Origin: an uncultured Bdellovibrionales bacterium
Lineage (GTDB): Bacteria > Bdellovibrionota > Bdellovibrionia > Bdellovibrionales > Bdellovibrionaceae
Reading direction: 5' to 3'
DNA length: 51,895 bases
NCBI GenBank assembly: GCA_903926205.1
Contig: CAIYID010000027.1
Location: 1 to 51,895, forward strand
Every line of letters starts with the position of its first letter. The stretch's first letter is position 1. The notes beneath the pieces were generated by a model. That model did not search any database and was not told where the DNA came from. It saw nothing but the letters and a program-made list of their open reading frames with translations. The position numbers and the translations under genes are program-made. Below, one piece after another: positions 15,963-33,088 of the stretch.

Positions 15963-15970
15963 TATGAAGA

Positions 15971-16138: not shown

Positions 16139-16165
16139 TAAAGTTTTTTGGACGAAAGACGAGAA
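16139..16165 (+). promoter_or_regulatory. Sigma-28-like promoter for flagellin 2
   Basis: CTAAAG with TAAA at 16139-16142, a 15-nt spacer starting GTTTTTT, then GACGAGAA at 16158-16165. This matches TAAAGTTT-N11-GCCGATAA at all four -35 core bases and six of eight -10 bases with the exact spacing. The start codon is about 260 nt further on, so the leader is long. Confidence 0.7.
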
Positions 16166-16171
16166 GGTGTT

Positions 16172-16428
16172 TGTAACACGTTGGAGCTACCGCGAGAAGA
16201 TCTAAAGGGACCTCGACAGCAGTCAAACTTCGAGAACCCAGAAGTTCCTCCCGTGCAACCCTCCTGGCAGAAGAGACAGTCACCTCTGAAGCCATGAGGG
16301 ATCTCCAGCACAAAAAAAGTTAGCACTCAAACTGGTGCTTTTATTCAGGGACAACCCTTTGGTGGTTTCTGTTTATGAGCTCAGGAAGTGGAAAAAGGGA
16401 AAAACTTTTTGTCTGTAGGGAGGACAAT
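16172..16428 (+). other. Long structured 5' leader of flagellin 2
   Basis: About 257 nt lie between the predicted transcription start and the ATG with no convincing gene. TCCTCCC at 16246-16252 is perfectly complementary to the ribosome-binding segment GGGAGGA at 16418-16424, and CCCTCC at 16259-16264 is a second near-complement. Local hairpins include AACTTC/GAAGTT around 16229-16246 and AGCAC/GTGCT at 16322-16339. This is consistent with post-transcriptional control of flagellin translation, but folding was judged only by eye. Confidence 0.45.
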
Positions 16429-17262
16429 ATGGGCTTAAGAATCCAAACAAATTTACCGTCCATATCCGCTCAGCGGGTAATGGACATCCAGCAAAGGCGG
16501 TTAGAGCATTCGACTCAAGCCTTAGCATCAGGAAGTCGCATCGTGCATGCGGGTGATGATGCTGCGGGACTCGCCATTTCAGAACACTTGCGCGGTCAAA
16601 TTAGGGGAACTGCGATGGCAAGACAAAATGCCTTCAACGCAGTTTCAGCCATTCAGGTGTCTGAGGGTGGTCTCAATGAAATTTCGAATATCATGGTGCG
16701 ATTGAGAGAGCTTGGGATCCAAGCGGCCTCCGACACAGTCGGAGATCAAGAGCGCACCTTCATTCAAAATGAATCAAAAAATCTGGTAGAAGAGGCTGAT
16801 CGTATCGCCAATACGACTCAGTTCGGAACGAAAAAACTTCTCGATGGATCAGGCGGAGTCCAAGAGTACCATGTCGGCGCTTACGGCGGAGAAGAAAACA
16901 GAATCAAGTTTAGTCTTTCTTCAGATGCGCGTGCCTCAACATTGGGAATCGATGGCATTGATATGTCGGACAAATCCGGTGCTCGTGACGCTTTGTCGGT
17001 GGTCGACAAAGGCTTAGATAAAGTCGGAGTTTTGCGAGCAAACTTCGGTGCGATTCAGTCGCGATTAGAGAGCACGGTCTCGAACTTAGATGTTCAGTAC
17101 GAGAACATCAGTGCGGCGAATAGCCGTATCAGAGATGTGGATGTTGCCAAAGAATCTTCAGAGATTGCTTCAGCGAGCGTTCTACAAAATGCCGCGGTCT
17201 CCGTGTTGGCGCAAGCCAATCAGCAACCGAACATGGCACTGAAGTTAGTTCAGAATTTATAA
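16429..17262 (+). CDS. Flagellin 2 (277 aa)
   Basis: A canonical short flagellin: MGLRIQTNLPSISAQ start, ALASGSRIVHAGDDAAGLAISE at residues 31-52, the IQAASDT helix, and the C-terminal QANQQPNMALKLVQNL. It has only D0/D1 domains, as expected for a filament inside a sheath. The start at 16429 is set by the conserved flagellin N-terminus and by AGGGAGG 5 nt upstream, rather than by an in-frame ATG at 16375. Preceded by a sigma-28-like promoter and followed by a terminator. Confidence 0.95.
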   Translation: MGLRIQTNLPSISAQRVMDIQQRRLEHSTQALASGSRIVHAGDDAAGLAISEHLRGQIRGTAMARQNAFNAVSAIQVSEGGLNEISNIMVRLRELGIQAASDTVGDQERTFIQNESKNLVEEADRIANTTQFGTKKLLDGSGGVQEYHVGAYGGEENRIKFSLSSDARASTLGIDGIDMSDKSGARDALSVVDKGLDKVGVLRANFGAIQSRLESTVSNLDVQYENISAANSRIRDVDVAKESSEIASASVLQNAAVSVLAQANQQPNMALKLVQNL

Positions 17263-17347
17263 TAGTAATAATAAATCCTGTTCGTAAGGGCAGGAAATCA
17301 CCAAGTTAAGGAGTGCGTAGCCCACAGACCTGCGAACTCTTAAGCCC

Positions 17348-17379
17348 CCCTCGGGGCATCCGCTCCGAGGGTTTTTTTC
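17348..17379 (+). terminator. Intrinsic terminator after flagellin 2
   Basis: CCCTCGG (17348-17354) pairs with CCGAGGG (17365-17371), followed by seven T. A second hairpin, CGGCT-GAAA-AGCCG with a GNRA-type tetraloop inside an outer CTAG/CTAG pairing, follows at 17379-17403. Upstream, GCCCACAGACCT at about 17319 is the reverse complement of a stretch in the flagellin 1 leader. Confidence 0.85.
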
Positions 17380-17474
17380 TAGCGGCTGAAAAGCCGATGC
17401 TAGAGCAATATCTGGTGAGTGAAGTTATCTGAAATCGGTAGACAAAAACTGTGAGTCTGTGTTGACTAGTGCTC

Positions 17475-18653
17475 ATGAAAAAGTTTTTTAGAACCCATCC
17501 GGAGCTCATTTATCTTAATTCTGGTTCGCATTCACTGGTGCCTCTTTCTGTCATTCAAGAGGTCAAAGCTGAGCTCGACTTGTATGAACAAAATCCCACC
17601 GCCGGGATGTTTCAAGCGTGGCAAAAGCTTTGGAGTGTGCAGAAACAAATAGCTCCTCATTTTGGAGCAAATCCCAAAAATTTCTTTTTTCGAGCCAATG
17701 TCACTCAACCATTGAATGAATTTATTCTGGGTGTGAAATTGCCCCCTGCGAGTGAAATCCTCACTTCTGATCAAGAATACGGTGCTGTTTTTAATATTTG
17801 TCGTTTTAGGGCAGAAAGAGATTCTTTAAATTTAAAAACATTCACTATGCCTTCTCGTCAGGAAATAAGTGAAATGACGGCCGATGATTTAGTTGATCGC
17901 GTGGTTTCGTCATTCACGCCAAAAACAAAAATGCTCGTAATAAGTGAAATTTTTACGGGGAGCGGAGTGGTCGTTCCTTTGGAAAAGATTGGTCGTGAGG
18001 CTCGTGCTCGGGGAATTTTTACAGTTATTGATGGGGCTCACTCACCAGGTTTTTTAAAATTGGATTTGGAAAATTCATCATTAGATTTTTATGCGGGCAA
18101 TTTACACAAGTGGTGGATGGGGCCAAAAGGAACCGGATTTGGTTGGGCTCGTCGAGAGTCTTTTACGGAATTGCAACCCATTCAAGCCGGATGGATTTCT
18201 TATGATTTACAAGAACCTTTTGCGAGTTTTGCCGAAGGCGATCCTCAGGCAATTCGTTCTTTAATGTTGGGCTGCCATGATTTTTCTCCATTTTTTGCCT
18301 TGTTGGCTACTTTGAAATTTTGGCAAGAACAAGGGCAAAATCAGATTTTTTCTCTTAAGCGTGCACTTGATAATCACTTAATTTCAGAGGCAGAGAGAAT
18401 TTTGGGTTTTCCAAGATTTGCTTCGAAGGACTCTCAAATGCAGGGACCTTTGCACTCATTTTTAATGCCCGAGAAGTTTTCTAAAATTGTATTCACGAAA
18501 TTGATCGAAGATTTACTTGAGCAAACAAAGGTTCAATGCTCGATCAACTTTGTCAACGGTGAGATGTATCTACGACTATCTCCTCATATTTATAATAATA
18601 AAGATGAAATTACTGAGGCGCTGCTGCGACTGAAGAAATTTTTCACACTCTAA
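17475..18653 (+). CDS. PLP-dependent class V aminotransferase / epimerase-like protein (392 aa)
   Basis: Fold-type I PLP enzyme of the NifS/isopenicillin N epimerase group: N-terminal THPELIYLNSGSHSLVP, the PLP-phosphate region FFRANVTQPLN, VIDGAHSPGFLKLDL with the cofactor-contacting Asp and His, and the Schiff-base lysine in YAGNLHKWWMGPKGTGFGW. Length fits. The substrate cannot be read; isopenicillin epimerase, cysteine desulfurase-like and amino-sugar enzymes share these motifs. It is lodged between flagellin genes with no strong ribosome-binding site at the ATG (GTG at 17469 is an alternative). Its position invites the idea of a role in flagellin modification, which is inference only. 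Confidence 0.85.
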   Translation: MKKFFRTHPELIYLNSGSHSLVPLSVIQEVKAELDLYEQNPTAGMFQAWQKLWSVQKQIAPHFGANPKNFFFRANVTQPLNEFILGVKLPPASEILTSDQEYGAVFNICRFRAERDSLNLKTFTMPSRQEISEMTADDLVDRVVSSFTPKTKMLVISEIFTGSGVVVPLEKIGREARARGIFTVIDGAHSPGFLKLDLENSSLDFYAGNLHKWWMGPKGTGFGWARRESFTELQPIQAGWISYDLQEPFASFAEGDPQAIRSLMLGCHDFSPFFALLATLKFWQEQGQNQIFSLKRALDNHLISEAERILGFPRFASKDSQMQGPLHSFLMPEKFSKIVFTKLIEDLLEQTKVQCSINFVNGEMYLRLSPHIYNNKDEITEALLRLKKFFTL

Positions 18654-18851
18654 AATCTTTTTCTATATATAGATATCAATGGTGACCCCGACGTAAGGAC
18701 CTCTGAAAAAAGTCCAGCCAGACCTCGACGCGATTTTTTTACCACTAGACTTTAGTAGGGGATTTTTTTAAAAAATCATATTTAAAGTGAGATTTTTCAA
18801 GATCAAAGTCTAGTTCCTCCACGACCTCAGTCTAGTTTCACTAGACGAGAC
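18654..18851. other. Intergenic stretch with clustered GTCTAGT repeats
   Basis: This gene-free stretch before the flagellin 3 promoter has no open frame with a start. It holds four copies of GTCTAGT/ACTAGAC (described separately) and T-rich tracts near 18734-18740 and 18763-18769 that may terminate transcripts from the aminotransferase gene. Confidence 0.5.
18744..18846. repeat. Clustered GTCTAGT inverted and direct repeats upstream of flagellin 3
   Basis: The heptamer GTCTAGT occurs on the plus strand at 18808-18814 and 18830-18836 and as ACTAGAC at 18744-18750 and 18840-18846. The last two neighbouring copies form a perfect 7-bp palindrome with a 3-nt centre (18830-18846), ending 5 nt before the -35 of the sigma-28-like promoter. 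The arrangement looks like operator sites for a dimeric DNA-binding protein; which protein is unknown. Confidence 0.55.
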
Positions 18852-18878
18852 TAAAGATTTGCCCGACCTCGCCGATTG
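18852..18878 (+). promoter_or_regulatory. Sigma-28-like promoter for flagellin 3
   Basis: TAAA at 18852-18855, exactly 15 nt, then GCCGATTG at 18871-18878: a near-perfect match to TAAA-N15-GCCGATAA. It is the best sigma-28-like site in the window. The flagellin ATG is about 280 nt downstream, giving a long untranslated leader. Confidence 0.8.
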
Positions 18879-18884
18879 GATAGG

Positions 18885-19162
18885 TACGCAAGTAGATCAA
18901 GACTCGACTAAACAGAGTGAGAGCGAGATTCGGAGTGACTGCCAATCTCGATCGTTAGCAACAAAGTTTAGAAAAGTTGAGGTCTCCAACGTGTTACCGC
19001 TGGAAACAAGGATGAGCTTTGTTTCTGGTCTGTGGAAGCAAGGATTTTCTTTGTTTCTAAAATAAACCAAGCGGCAAAGGATGCTGCGCCAAATGCATGT
19101 GCTTGTAGGTAAGCCGTCATTATTGGTTGAGGTCAAGAAGCCCTTAAAACTGGAGGTCCCAA
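18885..19162 (+). other. Long 5' leader of flagellin 3 with a CsrA-site-like motif
   Basis: No credible gene lies in these about 278 nt. At 19004-19015 the sequence AAACAAGGATGA matches the CsrA/RsmA consensus RUACARGGAUGU at 10 of 12 positions, and further GGA-centred sites occur at 19032-19036, 19075-19083 (CAAAGGATG) and in the ribosome-binding site itself (TGGAGG, 19150-19155). Several GGA sites ending on the Shine-Dalgarno is how CsrA controls flagellin in Bacillus and Campylobacter. Control here is inference. Confidence 0.45.
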
Positions 19163-19996
19163 ATGGGAATGAGAATTTCAACAAACATGGCGTCGATCAA
19201 CGCTCAACGTACACTTTCAAAATCACAAGGAGAGATTCAAAAAAGCATGGCGCAAATTGCGTCGGGCAGTCGAATCACTAAAGCGGCAGATGATGCCGCC
19301 GGCCTGGGAATTAGCGAAATGTTAAAGTCTCAGATTCGAAGTTACGCGCAAGCGTCTCGTAATGCCAATGATGGTATATCAATGGTGCAAGTCGCAGAGG
19401 GTGGACTAGGTGAGACTTCGAATATTCTGACTCGTATGAGAGAGCTGGCTATCCAAGCTTCTTCAGACACCGTCGGTGAAAATGAGCGTGGTTATATTAA
19501 TAAAGAGGTTCAACAACTAAGAGATGAAACAGAGCGAATCGCAAAAACGAATCGTTTTGGCAAAACAAATTTATTAGACGGCTCTGCTCAGAATTTTGAA
19601 ATTCAGGTGGGTGTAAATAATACGGGAGTGGAAGATCGAATTTCTTTCAAGGCCAGTGAATTGAATGCAACGACAGATGCATTAGGAATTTCAAGTATTG
19701 ATTTTTCATCGAAGCAAGGTGCGCAAGACATGCTGATGGTGATTGATACCGCTCAGGAAAAAGTAAATAGTTTCCGAGCTAACATTGGTGCGATCCAGAA
19801 TCGATTGCAGTCAGCAGTGGAAAATTTAGGTGTTCAACACGAAAATCTGTCTTCAGCAAATGCTCGAATCCGCGATACTGACATCGCTCAGTCATCAGCA
19901 GATGCGGCTCGAAATCAAGTGTTGTTGCAGGCTTCTGTGGCGATGGCCGCGCAAGCGAATCAGCAACCAATTTTAGCAATGAAATTGATTGGTTAA
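19163..19996 (+). CDS. Flagellin 3 (277 aa)
   Basis: A canonical short flagellin, MGMRISTNMASINAQRTL at the start, DDAAGLGISE at residues 43-52, MRELAIQASSDTVG, and QANQQPILAMKLIG at the end; D0/D1 only. TGGAGG lies 7 nt before the ATG. It is closer to flagellin 2 than to flagellin 1 in the conserved motifs. It has its own sigma-28-like promoter and a downstream hairpin, so the three flagellins can be expressed independently. Confidence 0.95.
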   Translation: MGMRISTNMASINAQRTLSKSQGEIQKSMAQIASGSRITKAADDAAGLGISEMLKSQIRSYAQASRNANDGISMVQVAEGGLGETSNILTRMRELAIQASSDTVGENERGYINKEVQQLRDETERIAKTNRFGKTNLLDGSAQNFEIQVGVNNTGVEDRISFKASELNATTDALGISSIDFSSKQGAQDMLMVIDTAQEKVNSFRANIGAIQNRLQSAVENLGVQHENLSSANARIRDTDIAQSSADAARNQVLLQASVAMAAQANQQPILAMKLIG

Positions 19997-20779: not shown

Positions 20780-22159
20780 ATGCCGGCGATTAGAATTACG
20801 GGAATGGCTTCTGGGCTCCCGCCAAACATTGTTGATCAACTCATGGATGCGGAGCGCATTCCTGTGAAGCAAATGGAAACAAAGAAAGCCGTCGAAGACG
20901 AAAAATATAAACTCGTTGAAGAATTAGAAACAAAAGTGAACGAAATTCCAAAAAGCATCGGTGAACTTGTTGGAATGCGCGGCTTTACAAATATGAAATT
21001 AAATTCTGGTGATCCAAACATCATCAATGGTTCTGCGGATCCTGCAGAAGCTGGAACTGGCAGCTGGATGGTTGAGGTTGAACAGTTGGCCAGCAAAGCC
21101 GGAGCCTTATCGTCAGGTTTCCCAGATCCAGATCGCACTCAGATGGGTGTTGGTTATATGAAATTTGAAACATCGGAAGGAAGTAAAGAAGTTTACATCA
21201 ATGGCAAGAACAACACATTAAAAAGTGTTGCGGCGACGATCAATTCTTCCAATACTGGTGTGCGGGCGAGTGTCATCAATGATCGTAAAGATAAAGAAAA
21301 TCCATTTCGAATTATGGTCACAGGATTGGCGACTGGCGATGATAAGCAGGTAACATTTCCAACAGTTTATATGTTAGACGGAGACCAGGATTTTTATTTC
21401 GATGAACAAAAAGTTGGGCAGAATGCGAAAGTTAAAGTGGACGGTTTTGAAATGGAAGTTGGTGAAAATCAGATAAAAGATGTGATTCCTGGAGTCACAT
21501 TAGATTTGAAGCAAGCGGTGCCGGGGCGACCAATTGCCATCACAGTCAAAGAAGATATGGAAGTGATTTCAGGAAAGATCAAATCTTTTGTTGATGCCTA
21601 CAACGGTGTTTTAAGTTGGATTCAAAACCAGCATAAACTTCAAAAAAGTAAAGACGGTCGTGAACATCTTGGTCCGATGGGTGGCGACGGAATGTTGCGA
21701 ACGATTGAAAATGATTTTCGCCGTGTTATTTTAACTCCTCAATACGGTCTTTCAGACAATCTCAGCAGAATAGCAGATTTAGGTGTTGAATTTAATCGAA
21801 ATGGAACTTTGAATTTAAACCAAGAAAAATTTAATAAAACTTTAGCCTCGGATCCACAAGGCGTAGCAAACTTTTTGCGTGGGGACGGCATGAAAACCGG
21901 TTTTATTCCTACAGTAAAAAGACAAGTTACAAATTTGATCAACGGCGCTTTCGGCCCGATCACCATGCGTAAGCACAGTGTGCAGGACAAGATCAAACAA
22001 CTTGATCAACGTATAGATACTAAGAATCGACAATTAGAAAAGAAAGAAGAATCACTAAGACAAAAGTTCGGTGATTTAGAAGCTCAAATGTCGAGATTAA
22101 ACCAGCAGGGCTCTCAAGTGGCTGGCTTAGCAAGCGGTGGCGGAAAGGCGGGAAGCTAA
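20780..22159 (+). CDS. fliD: Flagellar hook-associated protein 2 (filament cap)
   Basis: The N-terminus (RITGMASGLPPNIVDQLMDAERIPV) matches the FliD signature 'GlaSGld...iV..Lm..E..P', and the C-terminal 60 residues form the expected coiled coil (IKQLDQRIDTKNRQLEKKEE). Length 459 aa is normal. FliD caps the growing filament and guides flagellin folding; it leaves the cell by the flagellar export apparatus with FliS/FliT-type chaperones, whose genes follow. The ribosome-binding site is weak (GGGATAA). The upstream promoter is not obvious. Confidence 0.95.
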   Translation: MPAIRITGMASGLPPNIVDQLMDAERIPVKQMETKKAVEDEKYKLVEELETKVNEIPKSIGELVGMRGFTNMKLNSGDPNIINGSADPAEAGTGSWMVEVEQLASKAGALSSGFPDPDRTQMGVGYMKFETSEGSKEVYINGKNNTLKSVAATINSSNTGVRASVINDRKDKENPFRIMVTGLATGDDKQVTFPTVYMLDGDQDFYFDEQKVGQNAKVKVDGFEMEVGENQIKDVIPGVTLDLKQAVPGRPIAITVKEDMEVISGKIKSFVDAYNGVLSWIQNQHKLQKSKDGREHLGPMGGDGMLRTIENDFRRVILTPQYGLSDNLSRIADLGVEFNRNGTLNLNQEKFNKTLASDPQGVANFLRGDGMKTGFIPTVKRQVTNLINGAFGPITMRKHSVQDKIKQLDQRIDTKNRQLEKKEESLRQKFGDLEAQMSRLNQQGSQVAGLASGGGKAGS

Positions 22160-22214: not shown

Positions 22215-22637
22215 ATGAGTAATCCTTATCAAAAATACAAATCGACGCAGATCACCAGTGCCAGCAGAGAGAAACTGCTTTTGATGATGTATGAGGGCGC
22301 GATTAAATTTACAAAGCTAGCCATCAAAGCAATCGACGAAAAAAAAGTCGCGGCAAGATGTGAAAATATCGGACGTGCTTTTGATATTATTTTAGAATTG
22401 AATAATACGCTTGATCATAAAGCTGGTGGTGAAATTGCGAGCCGTTTGGAGCAACTGTATATGTTTATGACAGAGCAATACAGTAAAGCCAATATAACTG
22501 GCTCGGTGGAGCCGCTGAAGAGCAATCTGAAATTATTAGAGACGCTTTATGAAGCTTGGGTACAAGCTGTTGAGAAATTGAAAAAAGATGAAGTCGCAAA
22601 GTCGTCAGCGGAAAAGAACGATAAAAAAGCTGTCTAG
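22215..22637 (+). CDS. fliS: Flagellar export chaperone FliS
   Basis: MSNPYQKYKSTQITSASREKLLLMMYEGAIKF is the classic FliS opening ('Y...v.tas...Li.mLydgai'), and the remainder is four-helix (LNNTLDHKAGGEIASRLEQLYMFM). FliS binds the C-terminal helices of unfolded flagellin in the cytoplasm and delivers it to the export gate. The 140-residue length is normal. It lies 55 nt after fliD and 43 nt before the next chaperone-like gene. Confidence 0.95.
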   Translation: MSNPYQKYKSTQITSASREKLLLMMYEGAIKFTKLAIKAIDEKKVAARCENIGRAFDIILELNNTLDHKAGGEIASRLEQLYMFMTEQYSKANITGSVEPLKSNLKLLETLYEAWVQAVEKLKKDEVAKSSAEKNDKKAV

Positions 22638-22680: not shown

Positions 22681-23103
22681 ATGATGAGAATCATCACACT
22701 TTTAAATCAGAAAAATCACTACCTTGAAAAATTTTACTCAGTCAACGAGAAAGAACTGTTGAATTTTTCTAAAGGGAATTTTGATGGCATCGAAGCCTTC
22801 TATCAAATGAGAGACAAAATCCTAGACCTGATCAAGTATCTCGATAAAGAAATCGAGGCGGCTCAAGAGAACATGGCAACGCCAGTCAGTTCTGATGTTC
22901 GGTTACAGGTCAAAGAGGTGTTGGCGATCAAAGACGAATACGTGAGTCGAATCTTAGCTCAAGATTTAGAGGTTTTGACCTGCATTGAAATGGCAAAATC
23001 CAATATCATTAGAGAGCTTCAAGATCTTCGAAAGACGAAGTCTGCAATGGGGCGTTACAAATCTGGACGTGGCCCAACGAGACGTCTCGACGAAGAAGCG
23101 TAA
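22681..23103 (+). CDS. FlgN/FliT-like flagellar chaperone (140 aa)
   Basis: An all-helical, charged protein with heptad-like spacing throughout and no signal peptide: LLNQKNHYLEKFYSVNEKELLNF, then a region of DKILDLIKYLDKEIEAAQ. Its size, helicity and position after fliS fit the FlgN/FliT group of small export chaperones for hook-associated proteins or the FliD cap. Sequence in this group is poorly conserved, so FliT versus FlgN is not decided. AGGAGGGG lies 4-5 nt before the ATG. The basic C-terminus (GRYKSGRGPTRR) is unusual. Confidence 0.7.
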   Translation: MMRIITLLNQKNHYLEKFYSVNEKELLNFSKGNFDGIEAFYQMRDKILDLIKYLDKEIEAAQENMATPVSSDVRLQVKEVLAIKDEYVSRILAQDLEVLTCIEMAKSNIIRELQDLRKTKSAMGRYKSGRGPTRRLDEEA

Positions 23104-23164: not shown

Positions 23165-24376
23165 ATGAAAAAAGATTTGAGAGCAGTTACTTACTTAAGT
23201 TCCATTATTTTTCTTACCTGCGCATTGGCATGTCAGAGCTCGAATTCAAACAAAGAAAGTCTGACTGAAAAAACCGATTCAGCGCCAATTCTGGTTGCTA
23301 CTATGCAAAGTTATCGGGAAAATCTCACGAGACTTTTGCCGATGATTATTGATACAAAACAATTCAATGCACCTGAAAACACGGAAAAAATTAATCAAGA
23401 GGTTACAAGTCTTTTAGAAATATCCAAACAGGTTGTTCACACTCCTCAAGTGGAACATCTCGACCCAAGTTTGAGATTTATTTCAAAGGCCTTCGATGAA
23501 GATTTAAAAAGAGCCAAAGAGAGTTTGGACGCGGGAAAACGTGAATTTGCCCGTTATACATTAATGAACGTGACGGCTTATTGCATTGAGTGTCACACAC
23601 GAACCTCTTCTGGCCCCTCTTTTAACACAAGCCAAATCGAGCAAAGCTTAAAGACAATGAATCCGATGGAGAGAGGCGAATATCTTTTAGCAACTCGCCA
23701 GTTTGATCGAGCTTTCTCTGAATTCGAGACGGTGATTAAAGCGTCCTTGAAAAAAAATGGAAATCTTTTCGATCTTGATCGAGCGGTTCGGTACGCGCTT
23801 TCAATCTCGATAAAGTTTCAACGAGCACCAAAAAAATCCTTGGAAATTGCACAGCTTGTAGAAAATAGTGATCAATCACCATATTACTTACGACAAAATG
23901 CGCGATCTTGGGATCAAGCGATACGAACTTGGCTGAAAGAAAAACCAATGAAAAGTGATAAAGTGGAGGATTTGCTTAAGCGCAGTGAAGCCTTGGTTAA
24001 GGCGGGGCGAAATTCTCAGATGGGTCTAGCGGATCGAGGAGGCGATATTTTTTTTCTGAGAGCTTTGTCTGATTTGCATTTAATATTAACACATCAGCTG
24101 AATAAAGACCAGTTGGGGGAAGCTTTATATCTCACCGGTAATAGTTACGAAGCAGTGAGAGATCTTTCCATTTGGTCTTTGCACGAAGATTATTATGACT
24201 CATGCATTCGACAGGTGCCACACACCAAGTGGTCTGAAAAATGTTTTTCAAAATTGGAAGAGTCTGTTTATTTTGGTTACACCGGAAGCAGTGGTTTACG
24301 ATTGCCTGTTGATATGGAAATAAAGTTAAATGAATTAAAGAAATTAGCTCTTCCGGAAATCACAGAAAAAAATTAA
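23165..24376 (+). CDS. Putative lipoprotein with a c-type haem motif (403 aa)
   Basis: The ATG at 23165 is supported by GAGGGG upstream and by a lipoprotein signal: basic start, hydrophobic TYLSSIIFLTCALAC, lipid-accepting Cys 23 (the lipobox ALAC is non-standard at -3). Residues about 45-150 are helical and end in AYCIECHTR, a CxxCH haem-attachment motif (Cys 140-His 144), as in cytochrome c'/c556-like helical bundles. The rest is helical with repeat-like (TPR-type) character. Haem attachment would need the Ccm system in the periplasm. It lies between flagellar chaperones and the glycosyltransferase module; a functional link is unproven. Confidence 0.7.
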   Translation: MKKDLRAVTYLSSIIFLTCALACQSSNSNKESLTEKTDSAPILVATMQSYRENLTRLLPMIIDTKQFNAPENTEKINQEVTSLLEISKQVVHTPQVEHLDPSLRFISKAFDEDLKRAKESLDAGKREFARYTLMNVTAYCIECHTRTSSGPSFNTSQIEQSLKTMNPMERGEYLLATRQFDRAFSEFETVIKASLKKNGNLFDLDRAVRYALSISIKFQRAPKKSLEIAQLVENSDQSPYYLRQNARSWDQAIRTWLKEKPMKSDKVEDLLKRSEALVKAGRNSQMGLADRGGDIFFLRALSDLHLILTHQLNKDQLGEALYLTGNSYEAVRDLSIWSLHEDYYDSCIRQVPHTKWSEKCFSKLEESVYFGYTGSSGLRLPVDMEIKLNELKKLALPEITEKN

Positions 24377-24538: not shown

Positions 24539-25726
24539 ATGCAAGGACTTTCTGGCACTCCTCTTGCTCCGATGTTTAATGAGTTAACAAGGAGTATCGG
24601 ACGCATGCAGGATGCAGCTACAAGACAGAAGTCTGAACAAAAATTTGTGATGCCGGTTTCTCCGGACGTCGAACCCAAAAAAACTTCATTTTTTGAAATA
24701 GTACCGGAGTCTCCGGATCATCGCGAAAAGGCTTTCGCGCGTTTCACGGAAGAGAATTTGCCGGAGACATCTGTTCTGCCAAAAACGGACAGCTCCGAAA
24801 GAAGTGCTTTAAAAAGAACTTCTTCTTCGGCAAAAGCTTCAGTGGCAGAATTATTACTTAATGCTGAAACGCTTTTAAGTCATGGCGAAAAAGACTTAGC
24901 AAGAGTATTGGTTTATGAAGCACTCAAGCTAGATTCGAAAAATCCATTAGCCTTGAAAAAAGCAAAAATATTTTTGAATCCGATAAAAGACTTAAATCAG
25001 TTGATATCAATACAAAATGTCATTTGTAAAAATGAATTATTTTTTGAAAATTATGCAGAATTGGCACATCTCTATTATAGGCAGGGAAATGATGATCAAG
25101 CGCTTAAATATTATCACGAGTGCTTAGGTCTTGTTCTTACAGAGAACGAAGTCCTTTTTGATGTTTATAAAAACATGGGAAACATCATGACAAAGATGGG
25201 AGACTTTGAGGGCGCCGAGGAGTATTTTCACAAAGCTTTCACTCTGAATCCGGACTCTGACATACTTTCAGTTAATTTGGGTACATTGAGTATTCAAAGA
25301 AATGATTATCAGTCGGCTCTTGAGCGTTTTCGATCGGCAGTAACGAAAAATCCAAAAAATGATAAAGCATGGGTCGGACTTTCCTTAGTTCATCATGAAA
25401 TGGGTGATGTGCCATTAGCCTTCGCAAATATAGAGAGTGCAATTGATATCAATCCCGCCAATCGAACAGCGGTGCAGCTCTTTGCTAATTGGTGTGTTCG
25501 TGAATCTCGATATTTGAACGCAATTGAAGTTGTGGAAAATTACTTATCTAAAGTCGATTTGGACGAAGAAATATCACTTGTTCTGGTACACCTTTTTTGC
25601 AAAGTAAATAAATTCGATCTTGCAAAAATTGAAGCCGAACGAGTTCTTCTTTGGAAGCCTGAGCATCAAGAAATGTCGGAAGTATACCAAGAATTAAGCC
25701 GCATGAAACAAGGAAGCTGTGAATGA
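24539..25726 (+). CDS. TPR-repeat protein (395 aa)
   Basis: After a polar, probably disordered N-terminal 100 residues, the protein consists of tetratricopeptide repeats: clear units near residues 180-212 (YAELAHLYYRQGNDDQALKY), 216-249 (VYKNMGNIMTKMGDFEGAEEY), 250-283 and 285-317. TPRs bind other proteins. Its stop overlaps the next ATG (ATGA). The first codon is uncertain (ATG 24539 has no well-placed ribosome-binding site; 24572 and 24605 are alternatives). It opens the glycosyltransferase operon and could act as its scaffold. Confidence 0.85.
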   Translation: MQGLSGTPLAPMFNELTRSIGRMQDAATRQKSEQKFVMPVSPDVEPKKTSFFEIVPESPDHREKAFARFTEENLPETSVLPKTDSSERSALKRTSSSAKASVAELLLNAETLLSHGEKDLARVLVYEALKLDSKNPLALKKAKIFLNPIKDLNQLISIQNVICKNELFFENYAELAHLYYRQGNDDQALKYYHECLGLVLTENEVLFDVYKNMGNIMTKMGDFEGAEEYFHKAFTLNPDSDILSVNLGTLSIQRNDYQSALERFRSAVTKNPKNDKAWVGLSLVHHEMGDVPLAFANIESAIDINPANRTAVQLFANWCVRESRYLNAIEVVENYLSKVDLDEEISLVLVHLFCKVNKFDLAKIEAERVLLWKPEHQEMSEVYQELSRMKQGSCE

Positions 25727-26325
25727 ATCATCTTGAAGAGCATAAAACCACCGATGGTTTGAGAACGCTGAGTCGTAATGGACGTTGCCTATGCTCTCCA
25801 CGCGACCCTCAGAAAGAAGCTGAGGAGTGGCTCAGTCGGCAGAAAATTCATTCTGAGGATCGAACGGTTGTAGTTTTGGGACTTGGCGCCGGATATCATT
25901 TAATTGCGCTAGTTAATAAGTTTCCAAAATTAGCTTTAAAAGTGATTGATTTGGATGATGAGATTTTTCAAACAACAAAAAGTTGGATAGAGCTTCTTAG
26001 ACAAACTAGCCCACAAATTCAGTGTTATAATCATGAATCGGCAGCTTCATTGTCTTGTTTGGAATACGATCTAGTATTAAATTTTCGGCCGGCATGGGCA
26101 GGGTTAGAAAATCAATACATGGTCGAGTATTTTCGTTTAACTCAGAATTCAGCAAGTAGTCTTGCTCGTGCTGCGGAAGAGAATAGACTAGAAGTTACCA
26201 GTCAAGGGCTGAAGGATAAGATTTCTTCAATTGATTTTTCACTTAAAGATCTGGATTTTGTCGGCGCAGATGGCGGGAATGAGGAAGTGAAGTTTTGGCG
26301 AGCGCTGCGGGAGCTAATTGAATGA
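25723..26325 (+). CDS. Rossmann-fold protein resembling the N-terminal domain of MAF motility accessory factors (200 aa)
   Basis: The central stretch TVVVLGLGAGYHLIALVNKFPKLALKVIDLDDEIF is a Rossmann-type strand-glycine-loop-helix, very like the opening of DUF115/MptE-like MAF proteins, which are tied to sialic-acid-like glycosylation of flagellin in Campylobacter, Helicobacter and Aeromonas. This protein lacks the long C-terminal part of MAF. A plain SAM methyltransferase is an alternative. It overlaps its neighbours on both sides by ATGA junctions, so it is made together with the TPR protein and the glycosyltransferase. Confidence 0.6.
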   Translation: MNHLEEHKTTDGLRTLSRNGRCLCSPRDPQKEAEEWLSRQKIHSEDRTVVVLGLGAGYHLIALVNKFPKLALKVIDLDDEIFQTTKSWIELLRQTSPQIQCYNHESAASLSCLEYDLVLNFRPAWAGLENQYMVEYFRLTQNSASSLARAAEENRLEVTSQGLKDKISSIDFSLKDLDFVGADGGNEEVKFWRALRELIE

Positions 26326-27995
26326 GAATTTTGGTTTTGTCGCTCTTACGCGTGGGCGATTTTATCATGCAGGAGTCAATCATCGAGGATCTAAGAACTG
26401 AGTATCCTCAGGCGGAGCTTCATTTATTGATTAATGATGTGAGTGAAAAATATATACGAGAATCAGGAAAGTATAAAAATATTCACATTTTACCCAGAGC
26501 TCAAATTCAAAGATCACTTGTAGAATCAGACCGACCGAAGCTATCCGCTTATTTTTCTTTACAAAAATTAGTTAAAACTTTGAATGAATTTCATTTTGAT
26601 CAAATTATTAATTTCTCTCACACGATGTTTTCTGCTCGGATAATGGATTTGCTCTGTGCGGGGGAAAAAAGCGGAATGCGATTTCAAGAAAGTCGAGTCG
26701 TTCGGCCGGATAATCTTTGGTTGCGTTTTATAAATGAAAATTTCAGTAGAAATTTGAATTCGCCTTTTCAAGGGATTGATTTGCTCAGGCAAGCGCATTC
26801 AATTCCTAGACACACTTCGCACAAATCACCACTTTCAGCGTTAGCAAAAAAAGGGAATATTCAAAAAATTGCCATTCAAGTACTGACAAGCGATCAGAAA
26901 AAAAACTGGCCGATGAAGAATTTTGCAGAGCTCGTTGCTTTGATGAACTTAAATCATCCTCATTTAGAAATTTCAATTTTAGGTGCACCAAACGAAGAAG
27001 AAATAATTCGACAGACCTTTTCTGAAAAATTGAATTGCAAAATTCAAATACTTAATTGGACAGATCTTAAAAGTTTTTTATTGCACACTGATTTGTTGAT
27101 CACGGGTGATACAAGTGTTCAACACTTGGCCGCACAGGTAGGAACACCGCTTGTGAGTTTATTTCTGGGAAGCGCCAATCCAGAGAAAACAGCCCCTATG
27201 CAAGCCGACGCCGTGATCTTGCAACCACGAACTCACTGCGCGCCTTGTTTACATTCAAAGTCTTGTTTTCGTGAAACACAGATTTGTGCTGAAGACTTAG
27301 CAGTGAATTGTGTGAGCTCAGTGATTGACTCAAGAATTCTCAATCAAGAGCTGCCTCAAATTCAAAGTCATATTTGGCAAGTTTCAACTAATAAAAATGG
27401 AATAATATTTTTAAAAAAAATTAGCAAAGGAGCTGAGGTGACAAATCTCAATAGATTTTTGGAGCAACTCACTTGGCAGATATATTTAGATCGTGGTCAC
27501 TTGGAAACAGCGGGGCCTTTTGGCTCGGCTTCATATATGTTTATTGAAGAACACTCTCGGGAGCTTGCTCGGCCAACAAGCTTGGCGGTTATTCAGACAG
27601 GGCTGCAAAATCGTCTGTTTGAATTTCAGACTCACGAATTATTCATCGACCGACTTGAGACCAATTTTCGAAAACAAATGACCCCATTTTTACTGAATCA
27701 AACTGAGGCTTCGAGTTCGGCGTTTAAAAATCTTTTAATGGATGAAGTGACAAATCATTTATTTGGAAAACCAAGTGGAAAAAATTATTTTTTTACACTT
27801 TTAGAAACCTTGAATATTGAAGAGCCACCGTTCCAACAATTAAAAAAAATCAAAGAGTGTCTTCAGGAGTCACGAGCTCTGATAGAAATTGAACTAAAGT
27901 TAATAAAATCAATATTAGTGGAATTAAATGAAAGGAATTTTATTTATGTCGCAAGAACTCGAACATTATTTGACCTTAGCTCTGCAGCGCCTTGA
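26322..27995 (+). CDS. GT9-family glycosyltransferase with C-terminal extension (557 aa)
   Basis: The first about 345 residues are heptosyltransferase-like: N-terminal MRILVLSLLRVGDFIMQESIIEDLRTEYP, the donor-site block TGDTSVQHLAAQVGTPLVSLF and the following Cys-rich segment HCAPCLHSKSCF. The family transfers ADP-heptose or related sugars to lipid A core or, in some bacteria, to proteins. Residues about 350-557 form an extra helical domain not seen in core heptosyltransferases. Start overlaps the previous stop (ATGA). The acceptor is unknown; placement after flagellar genes suggests a flagellar or envelope protein, as inference. Confidence 0.85.
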   Translation: MRILVLSLLRVGDFIMQESIIEDLRTEYPQAELHLLINDVSEKYIRESGKYKNIHILPRAQIQRSLVESDRPKLSAYFSLQKLVKTLNEFHFDQIINFSHTMFSARIMDLLCAGEKSGMRFQESRVVRPDNLWLRFINENFSRNLNSPFQGIDLLRQAHSIPRHTSHKSPLSALAKKGNIQKIAIQVLTSDQKKNWPMKNFAELVALMNLNHPHLEISILGAPNEEEIIRQTFSEKLNCKIQILNWTDLKSFLLHTDLLITGDTSVQHLAAQVGTPLVSLFLGSANPEKTAPMQADAVILQPRTHCAPCLHSKSCFRETQICAEDLAVNCVSSVIDSRILNQELPQIQSHIWQVSTNKNGIIFLKKISKGAEVTNLNRFLEQLTWQIYLDRGHLETAGPFGSASYMFIEEHSRELARPTSLAVIQTGLQNRLFEFQTHELFIDRLETNFRKQMTPFLLNQTEASSSAFKNLLMDEVTNHLFGKPSGKNYFFTLLETLNIEEPPFQQLKKIKECLQESRALIEIELKLIKSILVELNERNFIYVARTRTLFDLSSAAP

Positions 27996-28128
27996 AAAGG
28001 CTTATGACGAGATAATCAAAACCCAAGGTTATACGAGAGATACAGAAAAACTCAAAATGTTAGTAGAAATGACCAGAGAGCAGGTAAAAAATGAAAATTC
28101 TCGTACTGCAACTAGCCAGACTCGGTGA
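27946..28128 (+). CDS. Small helical protein of unknown function (60 aa)
   Basis: ATG at 27946 with AAAGGA about 9 nt upstream. The first 50 nt overlap the end of the glycosyltransferase gene in another frame and the last 38 nt overlap the start of the next one. The 60 residues are nearly all helix-forming (YLTLALQRLEKAYDEIIKT, LKMLVEMTREQVKNE). The double overlap within a tight operon suggests a real small partner protein for one of the two GT9 enzymes, but there is no family evidence. Confidence 0.55.
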   Translation: MSQELEHYLTLALQRLEKAYDEIIKTQGYTRDTEKLKMLVEMTREQVKNENSRTATSQTR

Positions 28129-29542
28129 TATTTATATGTCTTGGCCCGCGATTCGGGCCTTGCGAAGAAAATTTCCCGAAGCGGAAGTGCATGTGCTTAC
28201 GCGTCCTCGATTTGCGACGGCTTTTGAGGGGTTGACGTCGGTTCATAAAGTTCATCAATTGCCGACAAAAGAAATTCTGGCTCCTTTGGTTCAACCTAAA
28301 ATGGAAGTCCAAGAATCTTTTGATCTGTTAAGTGTTTTTGTTGATCAGCTTCATCATGAAGCCTACGACAAGATATACAATTTTTCCTTTTCGCCGTTAT
28401 CGAGTTATTTGACACATTACATTTCTAATTCGGCCACTGAAGTTTGTGGGTACACACGATTTAAAGATGGTTTTTTTGCAATTCCCGATGATATGAGCGC
28501 CTATTTTTATGCACAGGTGGGTATTGATCGTCCCAATCGTTTTCATTTAATAGAAATATTTTCTAGTTTGGTCGGCTCAGATTTAACCCCAGATGATTTC
28601 CGACCACCTCATCCAATGCCCAGCTGTAGCAAAAATCTTCCAAGAGAATACATTGCGGTTCACATTGGAGCGAGCGAGTCGACTAAAACTCTTTCTGCTG
28701 AAAAATGGACGCAAATTTTGCAGATCCTTCATCAACAAACAGCATTGCCATTTGTTCTGATTGGTTCCGAAGGCGAAGCTTTGATTGGAAAACACATCAC
28801 TGAAATGATGGAGCTTGGCTCTGTTCATAATTTGGTGGGACAGACAAAATTAACTGAACTTTTTCCCATCATTAAAGGGGCTCGTGTTTTGATTGGTTGT
28901 GATAGTGCGCCAATGCATATGGCAACTTTAACAAACACACCTTGTGTTAATATATCTCTGGCCTCGGTCAATTTTTGGGAGACCGGTCCTCGTTCAATGG
29001 ATAGCGTGATTGTTCGGGCGAAGACGGAAGAAGATTTATCCTCTGAAAAAGTGGCCACTGTCATTTATAGGAATTTGAATGGCGAGAAACAAGACCTGAG
29101 TGTGATTCATACAACGGCGGGGACACCCAGTTATTCAGCATTCACCCCCAAATCTGCTGACTTTGAGTGGTTGTTTTTACGAGCACTTTATATGGCAGAA
29201 GATTTTCCTTCGAATGATGATCCAAATTTTGTTGATGCGATTGTTCAAATGGCAGAAATTAATCAAATCATGCTCCAACAAATGGGTAATGTGGATCGCT
29301 CCGGAGATGTAGCAAAAGCGGCTCCGTTTATTGAGCGTGGGGAAGAAATTATTGAGACCATCGCTAAGCTGGTACCTGCAACTCAGTCATTAGTTAGATG
29401 GTACCAAACTGAAAAAGTTCGGATTCCGCCAGCCGATATGAAGACTATTTTGCAACGAACGATGGAGATTCACGATTTATTCCAAAAAGTTTTAGATCTT
29501 TATAAGAACTCAACTCGAACTCCGGAAAAGGAGCTACGATGA
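28091..29542 (+). CDS. Second GT9-family glycosyltransferase (483 aa)
   Basis: Heptosyltransferase-like: MKILVLQLARLGDIYMSWPAIRALRRKFP at the start, IAVHIGASESTKTL in the middle (phosphate-binding loop of the donor), and IGCDSAPMHMATLTNTPCVNISL for the donor ribose/adenine region. A helical extension (about residues 345-483) replaces the normal short C-terminus, as in the neighbouring GT9. GAGCAGG precedes the ATG. Two paralogous GT9 enzymes with extensions in one operon suggest sequential sugar additions to one acceptor. Overlaps the next gene as ATGA. Confidence 0.85.
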   Translation: MKILVLQLARLGDIYMSWPAIRALRRKFPEAEVHVLTRPRFATAFEGLTSVHKVHQLPTKEILAPLVQPKMEVQESFDLLSVFVDQLHHEAYDKIYNFSFSPLSSYLTHYISNSATEVCGYTRFKDGFFAIPDDMSAYFYAQVGIDRPNRFHLIEIFSSLVGSDLTPDDFRPPHPMPSCSKNLPREYIAVHIGASESTKTLSAEKWTQILQILHQQTALPFVLIGSEGEALIGKHITEMMELGSVHNLVGQTKLTELFPIIKGARVLIGCDSAPMHMATLTNTPCVNISLASVNFWETGPRSMDSVIVRAKTEEDLSSEKVATVIYRNLNGEKQDLSVIHTTAGTPSYSAFTPKSADFEWLFLRALYMAEDFPSNDDPNFVDAIVQMAEINQIMLQQMGNVDRSGDVAKAAPFIERGEEIIETIAKLVPATQSLVRWYQTEKVRIPPADMKTILQRTMEIHDLFQKVLDLYKNSTRTPEKELR

Positions 29543-30198
29543 CAAAAACATTAATCGATAGGGCAGAGCTTCAAACGAATTTTTCGTCGATCACTGAACT
29601 GGGGGCTTTAATTAAAGCTCTAGAGGAACGTTTTTTGAGTCAAGGCGAAGTGATTTGCCAATTTAAGTTGAATGGGCTGTCAATCTCTGAAGCTGACGAA
29701 AAACGACTGTCTCAGATGGGTCTGCATGAGATTGAATTTATTGAGATTGAAAGTCAGAGCCCGCAGACTCTGCTTTTCAATCTTTTGGATAATTGGTCTA
29801 AAGAATTGCCAGCTTTAATGAAAAATGCCGAAGAACTGGCCAAAGAGATCAGATTTAAAGGTCTCGAAGGTCATTTGAAAGCCTTTGTGAATTTGCTGGA
29901 TACTTGTCAGTTTCTTATGGAAAGTTTGATTAGCCTGGAATCTATTATTAAAACTTCTCCGGCCAGCCAAGTGAGTTGGTGTAAAGCAGAGGAATTGACG
30001 GCCCGAGCCATTGGTGAGGCACTGAAAACCTTCGAGAAAAAGGATTTTGTTTTTTTGTCGGAAATCCTTGAGTATGATCTTGGTCATGCATTGCAAGTTT
30101 GGTTCGACGAAATCAGTAAGCTGAGCCAAGGATTGAAGGACGAGAATGCCAAAGACGCAAAAGGATTCTCAGAACGGATCTTTTTCAAGGGAACTTGA
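29539..30198 (+). CDS. Protein of unknown function (219 aa)
   Basis: Not recognised. Predicted to be cytoplasmic and largely helical after a short alpha/beta N-terminus (VICQFKLNGLSISEADEKRL). It starts by ATGA overlap with the second GT9 gene and runs 53 nt into the sensor-kinase gene in another frame, so it sits exactly at the junction of the glycosyltransferase and signalling parts of the operon. Confidence 0.75.
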   Translation: MTKTLIDRAELQTNFSSITELGALIKALEERFLSQGEVICQFKLNGLSISEADEKRLSQMGLHEIEFIEIESQSPQTLLFNLLDNWSKELPALMKNAEELAKEIRFKGLEGHLKAFVNLLDTCQFLMESLISLESIIKTSPASQVSWCKAEELTARAIGEALKTFEKKDFVFLSEILEYDLGHALQVWFDEISKLSQGLKDENAKDAKGFSERIFFKGT

Positions 30199-32257
30199 GA
30201 AGCAGAAACGCATTGTCTTGATTGATACTCATCAATACATGGAAAGCGTACTCACTGCTGAGATTTCAGCCGGTAGCTTTTTTAATCAGTATCAACTCAT
30301 TAAATTAAATAACACTGAGGAACTTGTTCAGTACCTTTCATTAGGTGATACGGATATCCTGATTGCCGTCGACGAAAAGCCGGATCATATATTCGCTATA
30401 TTTGAATTGTCTTTGCAATTGTCTCCTCACACTGCGCGGATAATGATTGTAAAGGATTGGACCGAAAAAAATGTGCGAGATTCAATTAATCGGGTTCACG
30501 CTTTTCGAGCTCTAAGTTTTTCAATTTCTCCTCAAGAAATTCGGATGCATTTGCAAACAGCTTGCGTTGAGGCTGAGCTGTCCCGCAGCCAAGCTCGACT
30601 AATGAAAGAAGCCTCGAAACAAAACAGAGAGCTTGAGACTCTAACGTTAAGTCTTGAAAAAACCGTCGAAGATCGAACGATTCACATCCGTCAATCAAAA
30701 GATGAAATGGATGCAAAATTGGATTTGGTGCGACAGTTGATTCGTTTTATCAAAGAATTATCGCAAAATATTTCATTTGAAGAATTAATGGATCATGTCC
30801 GAAAATACATGAAAAAATTTGTTCGTTTAGGTGATCCAATTTTAGTTTTAAGAGATGAAATCCGTGAAGACATGGGTCAAGTGGAAATTATTTCCTATCG
30901 TTCGGGTGCCTATTGGTCTTCGGGCCTGATGAATGCGGGACGAGAGCATTTTCAATTTTCCGAAAAAACAATTCTGAATGATAAGGAAATGAGTCGTGAT
31001 TTAGCAAATTATTTTGGCCGGCCATTTATTCGAGTGGTGTCCATCCCTTTGCAGGTGAAGCTCATTCGAAAATTTGGTTTTTCTGAGGTCGCAGCCATAT
31101 TATGTATAGAGAGCTCAATGACAGAGAGCGAGCAACTTTTGTTTTTAGATCATTTTAGTAAAGTTTTATTGCCAGTATCAGTGGCTATCGATCGCTCTTT
31201 TTTGCAAAGAGCCTTGGCTCGGCAATCTTATCGTTGGGAAAGAACCTTTAATGGTCTCCGTGATCCTTTGGCTATTGTTGATGTTGATTATCATGTACTT
31301 CATTCCAATAGCAAATTTTCTGAAAGAATCGTGCATCGCCATTGTTATGAGTCTTTCGCACAGAGGACAAGTCCATGCGATGGTTGTCCAATGATTCAAA
31401 CTTTGTCTGACGGAAGCCCTCGAACGAATCAAATTCAAGTTGGTGGTCATCTTTATGAGGTGAGTTCCTATCCAATTCATTTGAGCGGTTCTGCAAAAAC
31501 ATCGACCGTGGTAAACCAATATGTGGATGTAACCCAAGCTCGGCAGCTTTATGTTCGAATGTTGCAGAGTGAAAAAATGAGTGCCTTGGGTTTGCTAGCG
31601 GGGAATATTGCACATGAATTAAATAACCCACTCTCTGGAATTCGTAATTTGACTCAAGTGATGATCGAAGAATCCAAAGATCAGTCGCAGCTAAATAATG
31701 ATTTAAAAGAAATTGAAAAAGCTGCCGCCAGGTCGCAAATGATTATAAAAAACCTTTTAGAATTTTCCAGTGGCACTCCAAAAAAACTGCAAGAAATTTC
31801 TTTGGCAGAAATTGTAGATCGCACAATGCCCTTATTAAAGACGACCATTAGAAATCATCGTTGCTACTTACATCTTGAAGATCGAGAAACTCTAGTGGCT
31901 GCAGATCCGCAATTAATGCAGCAAGTGGTTTTTAATTTGGTGACAAATGCCTGCCAAGCGATGAAAGACGGCGGAAATTTGGAAATCATCACTCACGTGA
32001 TTCAGGACGGTCAGCAGGTGGAATTAATTATTTCAGATTCAGGTCCTGGAATTCCTGAAACAATTAGAGAAAAAATATTTGAACCCTTTTTTACTACCAA
32101 AAATGAAAGCCAGGGAACGGGGCTTGGTTTAAGCTTATCGCTTGAGATCATCAAGAAAATGGGTGGTCATATTCGACTAGAGACGGAAATGAACAAGGGC
32201 AGCCAATTTATTGTTACTTTGCCATTCGTTTCACGAAAAAAGGAGGGCTCAGAATGA
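30146..32257 (+). CDS. Large cytoplasmic sensor histidine kinase (703 aa)
   Basis: No membrane segment is seen. Order: a degenerate receiver-like domain (about 20-135; strand KRIVLIDTH, no standard phosphoacceptor in ILIAVDEKP beyond D-E), a coiled coil (about 140-195), a GAF-like region (about 200-350), a PAS domain (about 365-455) with a C-x2-C pair in SPCDGCP near residue 411, a HisKA domain with phospho-His 490 in GNIAHELNNPLSGI, and a HATPase with NLVTNACQAM, DSGPGIPE and GTGLGLSL. The CxxC could sense redox or metal. The response-regulator gene begins at its stop codon (ATGA), so the pair is almost surely a two-component system. It begins inside the preceding gene. Confidence 0.9.
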   Translation: MPKTQKDSQNGSFSRELEKQKRIVLIDTHQYMESVLTAEISAGSFFNQYQLIKLNNTEELVQYLSLGDTDILIAVDEKPDHIFAIFELSLQLSPHTARIMIVKDWTEKNVRDSINRVHAFRALSFSISPQEIRMHLQTACVEAELSRSQARLMKEASKQNRELETLTLSLEKTVEDRTIHIRQSKDEMDAKLDLVRQLIRFIKELSQNISFEELMDHVRKYMKKFVRLGDPILVLRDEIREDMGQVEIISYRSGAYWSSGLMNAGREHFQFSEKTILNDKEMSRDLANYFGRPFIRVVSIPLQVKLIRKFGFSEVAAILCIESSMTESEQLLFLDHFSKVLLPVSVAIDRSFLQRALARQSYRWERTFNGLRDPLAIVDVDYHVLHSNSKFSERIVHRHCYESFAQRTSPCDGCPMIQTLSDGSPRTNQIQVGGHLYEVSSYPIHLSGSAKTSTVVNQYVDVTQARQLYVRMLQSEKMSALGLLAGNIAHELNNPLSGIRNLTQVMIEESKDQSQLNNDLKEIEKAAARSQMIIKNLLEFSSGTPKKLQEISLAEIVDRTMPLLKTTIRNHRCYLHLEDRETLVAADPQLMQQVVFNLVTNACQAMKDGGNLEIITHVIQDGQQVELIISDSGPGIPETIREKIFEPFFTTKNESQGTGLGLSLSLEIIKKMGGHIRLETEMNKGSQFIVTLPFVSRKKEGSE

Positions 32258-32634
32258 AAATTCTCATTATTGATGATGAACCCTTGGTTCGACGTTCACT
32301 CATGCGTGCTTTGATCTCTCGTGGGCACCAGGTCATTGAGAGTGTTGATGGTATTCAGGGTTTAGAGGTCTGGACGAAGGAACAGCCCGAGCTCGCGTTT
32401 GTTGACGTGTTGATGCCGGGATTGACCGGGCCACAAGTGATTCAAAATTTGGATCAAAAAATTCGTGAAAAAACCAAAATCATTTTAATGTCAGCATACA
32501 CGGGTGGCGATCAAGCTAGTCCAAAGTTAATAGAGAATGCTGACTTGTTTCTCTTAAAGCCTTTTGACGATATATTTAGAGTGGTCGAAGTTGCTGAAGG
32601 ACTAATGAAAGAGAATTCCGGAAAAATTAATTAA
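32254..32634 (+). CDS. Single-domain response regulator paired with the sensor kinase
   Basis: Receiver domain of 126 residues with IIDDEP, phosphoacceptor Asp 51 in AFVDVLMPG, Ser 80 in LMSAYTG and Lys 102 in LLKPFDD. No output domain. The ATG overlaps the kinase stop. A receiver without DNA-binding domain next to a flagellar and glycosylation module suggests control by protein contact, for example of motility or of an enzyme, but no target can be named. Confidence 0.92.
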   Translation: MKILIIDDEPLVRRSLMRALISRGHQVIESVDGIQGLEVWTKEQPELAFVDVLMPGLTGPQVIQNLDQKIREKTKIILMSAYTGGDQASPKLIENADLFLLKPFDDIFRVVEVAEGLMKENSGKIN

Positions 32635-32665
32635 AAGGAAAAAGGCTCGAAGCCAAAAAAATGCA

Positions 32666-33088
32666 ATGTCTGATACAAACTTAAAAGAAGTAAAAATAGT
32701 CAAAGTACAGCCCTATCCAATTACTTGTCATTTTGCGACGACAGAAGGACAGCCCCCACTTGAGTGTTTGATTCAGCGATTAGAGGATTTTGGATTTATT
32801 TTTAGATCCGTCAAACATCTCTATCGCATCGGTGAAGAATACGTATGTGATTTTGAGATTCCAGTGACAAAAGAAAAAATTCACGAAGTCGTTAAGGTGG
32901 TTCATTCGACCGAGTCTTCAGAACCTTATATTCCAAAAGGAAATAGAGAGCGAGTCATGACTGTTGAGGTTCACTTTAAAACTCTAGAGGGTGAATTTCG
33001 TAAACACATTCGATCCTTTCACGCAAAAATTGGACAACGGTCTGCAATAAAACCTTTGCAACAGACTCGCCAAAAAACAAAGCGATAA
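32666..33088 (+). CDS. Small protein of unknown function, PilZ-like in outline (140 aa)
   Basis: A beta-rich protein with a basic C-terminal tail (RSAIKPLQQTRQKTKR). The run of short strands (CHFATTEGQPPLECLI; FGFIFRSVKHLYRIGEEYVCDFEIP) resembles the barrel of PilZ-type domains, but the PilZ RxxxR and D/NxSxxG c-di-GMP motifs are not clearly present, so this is weak. It ends the operon 31 nt after the response regulator; the rsmD gene follows after 17 nt. Confidence 0.6.
   Translation: MSDTNLKEVKIVKVQPYPITCHFATTEGQPPLECLIQRLEDFGFIFRSVKHLYRIGEEYVCDFEIPVTKEKIHEVVKVVHSTESSEPYIPKGNRERVMTVEVHFKTLEGEFRKHIRSFHAKIGQRSAIKPLQQTRQKTKR

Follow-up and report, generated by a model that had tools for sequence, protein, structure and literature searches.

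A paired GT9 glycosyltransferase module beside fliD–fliS in the Bdellovibrionota: a candidate cytosolic glycosylation cassette for flagellar protein

In a stretch of 51,895 nucleotides from an uncultured Bdellovibrionales bacterium (contig CAIYID010000027.1, assembly GCA_903926205.1; hereafter the window), eight plus-strand genes at 24539–33088 lie downstream of the flagellar genes fliD and fliS. We call them, in their order, T, M, A, B, x, K, R and y; they encode a tetratricopeptide repeat (TPR) protein, a Rossmann-fold protein, two glycosyltransferases of family GT9, a small protein ending in a helical bundle, a sensor histidine kinase, a single-domain response regulator and another small protein. 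We think it fairly probable that M, A, B and x form a cassette that glycosylates a flagellar filament protein in the cytosol, flagellin being the likeliest acceptor, and that T, K and R serve other flagellar work. The reaction would probably use an ADP-heptose-like donor and neither a Maf enzyme nor nonulosonic acid. The observations behind this reading are linkage to fliD–fliS, an ancient A/B pair, the fold and catalytic residues of the enzymes, co-loss with fliS and the joint loss of M-A-B-x. Glycosylation is the best explanation available, given the phylum-wide conservation, the fold and the co-loss.

Linkage to flagellar genes across the phylum

B and FliS were searched for in 119 genomes of relatives. 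B was matched in 96 of them at 1e-5, the weakest of these matches being other GT9 proteins, and a fliS relative was found in 109. Ninety loci from relatives were read together with that of the window, their genes being laid out with iterated profiles, and all counts over the interval refer to the 79 loci of the order in which the whole interval was visible. The full recurring arrangement is fliD-fliS-flgN/T-T-M-A-B-x-K-R; the seven genes from T to R stand as in the window in 51 of the 79 intervals, and the rest hold reduced versions. In most genomes all genes of the block lie on one strand with short or negative gaps, and wherever fliS and B are both visible (70 of 70 loci) they share a strand and are at most 8.7 kb apart. 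The block is intact in genome G036, whose locus we take to be that of strain HD100. An exception to the linkage was observed in genome G018 (locus L051), where B-x-K lie away from fliD-fliS and fliS is on another contig.

A phylum-wide search with the B profile yielded 20 loci outside the order, 17 of which carry GT9 genes beside fliD-fliS. In the Bacteriovoracaceae all nine loci, one of them presumably from Halobacteriovorax marinus, read fliD fliS (N) M GT9 GT9 x K R and have no T, N being the FlgN/FliT-like gene; other families show fliD fliS N T GT9, in part followed by x, without K-R. The genes that come after R within the order, namely rsmD, coaD and an aminotransferase gene, do not follow outside it, Bacteriovoracaceae included, and this contrast controls for gene order that is merely conserved in general. 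Across the phylum the homologues were not found scattered away from flagellar genes, the outcome that a preliminary description of the region had named as contrary to its proposal.

Eight genomes that are at least 90% complete have no fliS match (G068, G094, G108, G110, G112, G114, G116 and G117). None of them has a genuine B: six gave no match at all and two gave matches at 1e-7 and 1e-5. An approximate Fisher test of this co-absence, which ignores kinship, gives 3e-6; since the fliS-less genomes all belong to one family (seven genera), the co-loss of B and fliS may represent few events. The broadest claim of the preliminary description, a glycosyltransferase module tied to the flagellum, is borne out in that the module is kept over the phylum and no genuine B occurs where fliS is absent. 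A pattern scan of 84,980 genomes met it only in Bdellovibrionota, apart from records with vague titles and one labelled Streptomyces griseus, but the patterns also missed the other classes of the phylum and do not thereby show the family to be absent elsewhere. The record titled as a metagenome-assembled genome of Streptomyces griseus (L116) encodes a Bdellovibrionota module and looks mislabelled.

The GT9 enzymes A and B

The genes A (26322–27995) and B (28091–29542) encode proteins of 557 and 483 residues, and their matches to PF01075 (80.8 bits, 1.2e-22 and 55.2 bits, 8.5e-15, respectively) exceed the cut-off of 22 bits and place both in GT9. With the equivalog models for lipopolysaccharide (LPS) heptosyltransferases (TIGR02193, TIGR02195 and TIGR02201) they remain below the cut-offs, at 60.6 versus 134.6 for A and 69.4 versus 185.3 for B. 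Both carry long C-terminal extensions, as first described, the solved WaaC, WaaF and GT9 chains having about 326–349 residues. A tree of glycosyltransferase domains, set against the other GT9s of this genome and one non-flagellar pair, unites all GT9s from flagellar loci in a single clade (support 0.91). Within it, the A proteins of the order cluster with the first Bacteriovoracaceae GT9 (0.976), gene position being kept. B, the second GT9s and the single GT9s that other families have group weakly overall (0.24), but B joins the single ones at 0.987. Judging from this tree, the A/B pair is probably older than the split of the classes.

The predicted structure of B (model mf7ecf3f32d0e; predicted local distance difference test, pLDDT, 94.7) has a GT-B fold that starts at residue 1 and aligns over about 300 residues with WaaC, WaaF and a Veillonella GT9 (2h1h, 1psw and 3tov; Z 27.4, root-mean-square deviation 2.8–3.5); with the protein heptosyltransferase TibC, Z is 17. 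Residues D13, K199 and D271, invariant in 49 B proteins, align with D13, K192 and D261 of WaaC, which we take to be catalytic there, and D13, K194 and D263 are invariant in 20 A proteins. The extension of B includes a four-helix bundle (residues about 378–475) in which W437 and P447 are invariant and E441 nearly so. It is general among the relatives of B, which is the best conserved enzyme of the block; that of A is missing from a good part of its relatives (proteins of 357–416 residues). Four cysteines of A (306, 309, 315 and 322) are nearly invariant and are spaced unlike those of the iron finger of TibC (339, 342, 358 and 370); B proteins have no conserved set of cysteines.

Given that GT9 enzymes of known function mostly make the LPS core, A and B might instead build or modify LPS or another glycan for the flagellar sheath, their location in the operon serving to co-time sheath and filament. 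Sheathed flagella do occur in Bdellovibrio and Bacteriovorax, and sheath LPS and cell-body LPS of Bdellovibrio are not alike (review PMC7175336). The reported difference, however, concerns fatty acids rather than core sugars, and the neighbours of the block are cytosolic chaperones of filament export. Moreover, A and B miss the LPS model cut-offs and fall in a clade apart from the other GT9s of the genome, which occupy five further places. We regard a role in the sheath as rather unlikely.

Separable parts of the module

A and M occur together in 57 of the 79 intervals and are both missing from 21; A alone was seen once and M alone never, and T accompanies K in 78. The preliminary description was right about T (24539–25726; TPR_2 2.1e-21), K (30146–32257; HisKA 2.1e-11, HATPase_c 2.4e-27) and R (32254–32634; Response_reg 3.3e-19 over residues 3–106 of 126), that is, a TPR protein, a HisKA/HATPase kinase and a receiver. 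K has no evident membrane segment (maximum hydropathy 1.38), and R gave no output domain or other Pfam match besides the receiver. In one genus, probably Pseudobdellovibrio, M, A, B and x are gone as a unit from all nine loci read through, which keep fliD fliS N T K R. This loss may be linked to life style, the lineage being one with epibiotic predators. Among its genomes, G003 is presumably B. exovorus JSS and G031 Ca. B. qaytius. In the loci of this genus (L105–L114) T and K now stand adjacent, the loss of M-A-B-x being exact. Genome G086 also has T-K-R without M-A-B-x. T, M-A, B-x and K-R are separable units; neither a FlmG split into separate genes nor a K-R pair dedicated to controlling the enzymes agrees well with this.

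Such an arrangement had been the full model of the preliminary description, namely a self-regulated system in which the TPR protein would confer specificity, as in FlmG, and the kinase and receiver would control the enzymes. The single strand and the short or negative gaps are compatible with it, and Caulobacter FlmG does bind flagellin through its TPR domain (PMC7591256). Nevertheless, Pseudobdellovibrio and G086 have T-K-R but not M-A-B-x, the Bacteriovoracaceae have M-A-B-x-K-R but not T, and other families have T-B-x but not K-R; R, moreover, consists of a receiver domain and lacks an output domain. We consider the full model very unlikely, and the term self-regulated does not hold.

Other open reading frames occupy parts of the interval in some genomes. 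In one family (genomes G070/G077 and G086) the place of M-A-B is held by frames of 450, 454 and 348 residues (L098:6785–8137, L099:11617–12981 and L102:4595–5641), which gave no Pfam match, do not clearly resemble A, B or M by profile and are possible non-homologous replacements of these genes. Three genomes of one genus (G087/G100/G102), all without M and A, carry a family of mutually similar frames of 151–159 residues between T and B (L074:8999–9478, L076:7072–7527 and L083:9918–10397), for which profile comparison shows no relation to A, B or M.

The proteins M and x

M (25723–26325) gives weak profile matches and had been called MAF-like. Its match to the N-terminal domain PF20157 (0.012) lies below the cut-off, and the catalytic domain of MAF_flag10/MptE-like proteins, PF01973, was found neither in M nor anywhere in the genome, so that the name cannot be kept. 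Across 24 members of the M family, methyltransferase models match 13 and the Maf N-terminal domain 12, all weakly, and among solved structures the family matches S-adenosylmethionine-dependent methyltransferases (best 6.5e-05). M has the look of a Rossmann/methyltransferase protein, and A is hardly ever found without it.

No family was matched above cut-off by x (29539–30198). Its predicted structure (model m429a9ebe62ab, pLDDT 91.7) consists of a small N-terminal alpha/beta portion followed by a four-helix bundle. HHalign relates this bundle to the extension of B with P 2e-4 and a probability of 45%, including a shared W...E motif, and x is possibly a stand-alone relative of that extension, which we offer as a lead only. 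With VIA-align the bundle reaches Z of about 13 to unrelated and designed proteins. No relation was seen between the FlgN-like protein N and the extension of B, that of A, or x.

Donor, acceptor and proposed route

For the catalytic activity, donor, acceptor, order of steps and roles of the bundle and of M we infer the following scheme. B, helped by x, would move a sugar from an ADP-heptose-type donor onto the subunit to be exported, before the subunit is handed over to FliS and the export gate, the C-terminal helical bundle of B being the likely acceptor-binding part. A, together with M, would extend or decorate this first sugar, M perhaps acting as a methyltransferase, and T, K and R would perform different flagellar work from within the same operon. 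Neither a membrane segment nor a signal peptide is evident in M, A, B or x, which fits cytosolic work before export; in Aeromonas, flagellin is glycosylated in the cytoplasm before a FliS-type chaperone binds (PMC4065374). HldE, which is needed for ADP-heptose, is present in the genome of the window (G000:C43; the genome is 99.96% complete) and in nearly all relatives. A search for NeuB at 1e-10 gave no match in this genome, which makes nonulosonic acid unlikely.

Several findings weigh against the glycosylation scheme. Genomes that lack B have HldE just as often, and a heptose donor is thus possible but not singled out. The flagellins of the phylum have about 277 residues and only the terminal helical regions, and no Ser/Thr column in them distinguishes B-containing genomes from the B-less Pseudobdellovibrio, so that the acceptor is read from gene position. 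Pseudobdellovibrio keeps its fliD-fliS locus without M-A-B-x, which means that the modification would be dispensable there. Compared with solved structures, x gave only generic four-helix bundles (best Foldseek E 0.05). In the open literature we found no study that tests these genes or looks for sugar on the flagellin of Bdellovibrio, and no report of GT9 flagellin transferases. As for the flagellins of the window, three genes lie near the block at 15135–19996, none with a variable middle domain, and an aminotransferase-like gene (17469–18653) sits between the second and the third.

The silent Ser/Thr columns would also suit an acceptor other than flagellin, with A and B acting on FliD or hook-associated proteins. 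Indeed, fliD and the FlgN/FliT-like chaperone gene are neighbours of the block as constant as fliS. Known cytosolic systems, on the other hand, target flagellin (PMC4065374, PMC7591256), and we hold this variant to be unlikely; flagellin remains our preferred acceptor.

Layout of the locus and its surroundings

The open reading frames of the preliminary description were recovered in place, although it had counted nine genes where we count eight. Its statement that most overlap by 4–53 nt is correct for five of the seven junctions (4 nt at T/M, M/A, B/x and K/R, 53 nt at x/K) and fails for A/B and R/y, which are separated by 95 and 31 nt. The anchors of the locus, all features here being on the plus strand, are fliD (20780–22159; FliD_C 2e-51, FliD_N 5.1e-15), for the filament cap, and fliS (22215–22637), for the flagellin export chaperone, the latter named from its position immediately downstream of fliD, an order shared with HD100, where the two are Bd0611 and Bd0612 (PMC9140294); Bd0611 has been called a flagellar protein (PMC11656739). 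N (22681–23103), a FlgN/FliT-like export chaperone gene (FlgN 2.1e-05 and FliT 0.0037, both below the gathering score), occupies the same position in nearly all loci. The block does not follow N directly, as had been supposed: a predicted lipoprotein gene (23165–24376; hydrophobic N-terminus ending in C) intervenes, a lineage-specific insertion seen in only 8 of the loci read and probably outside the module. At the other end, y (32666–33088; DUF4912 0.013, below cut-off) lies between R and rsmD and is present in part of the relatives (34 members among the loci read). The limit drawn at 33088 is not sharp, since most relatives within the order likewise have rsmD, coaD and the aminotransferase gene next, arranged alike.

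Sigma-28 promoter-like sites are over-represented upstream of flagellin genes and flaG; no such enrichment precedes T, M, A, B, x or K, which gives no sign of separate internal flagellar promoters, and a general promoter and terminator scan was near chance. A 42-bp tandem repeat (seven copies, 98% matches) occupies 51604–51895 and reaches the end of the window; the minus-strand open reading frame over it has no Pfam match.

Significance and comparison with known systems

What is known of flagellar protein glycosylation comes mostly from Maf, FlmG-like and a few further enzymes, and nonulosonic acids are often the sugars involved. Were our reading true, a whole phylum, including the model predator Bdellovibrio bacteriovorus, would use a different enzyme family for it, and, the flagellum being sheathed, host evasion would hardly be the reason. 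A bolder version, which we put forward tentatively and which may well not hold, is that paired GT9s with helical-bundle extensions represent an intracellular heptosylation of flagellin as old as the phylum, free of Maf and nonulosonic acids, whose disappearance marks the epibiotic Pseudobdellovibrio lineage. Because M-A-B-x were lost there so exactly and partial versions occur in nature (B alone, B with x, A-M-B-x), the steps and roles can be tested directly in HD100.

Cytosolic glycosylation of flagellar protein is already known as a kind; the GT9-based arrangement would be an unstudied form of it. FlmG of Caulobacter crescentus, a TPR-GT-B flagellin O-glycosyltransferase, shares a cytosolic GT-B and TPR module and the link to flagellin (PMC7591256). 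However, FlmG unites TPR and transferase in one protein, whereas here they are separate genes that have been lost independently, the transferases are GT9 enzymes with a helical C-terminal bundle, and the genome lacks a nonulosonic acid synthase. Maf enzymes of Aeromonas, Campylobacter and Helicobacter are likewise encoded near the genes for flagellin or its chaperone and act in the cytoplasm ahead of a FliS-type chaperone (PMC4065374), but PF01973 and NeuB are absent from this genome. TibC and the other BAHT proteins have a heptosyltransferase-type GT-B fold, and TibC, like the proposed cassette, acts on protein; B differs in having no N-terminal beta-barrel and an extension that is C-terminal and helical, and the acceptors of TibC are autotransporters (PMC4358343). 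WaaC and WaaF share family, fold and catalytic residues with A and B, from which they are set apart by the equivalog cut-offs, by the about 150–230 extra C-terminal residues of the block enzymes and by the location of the latter in a flagellar operon.

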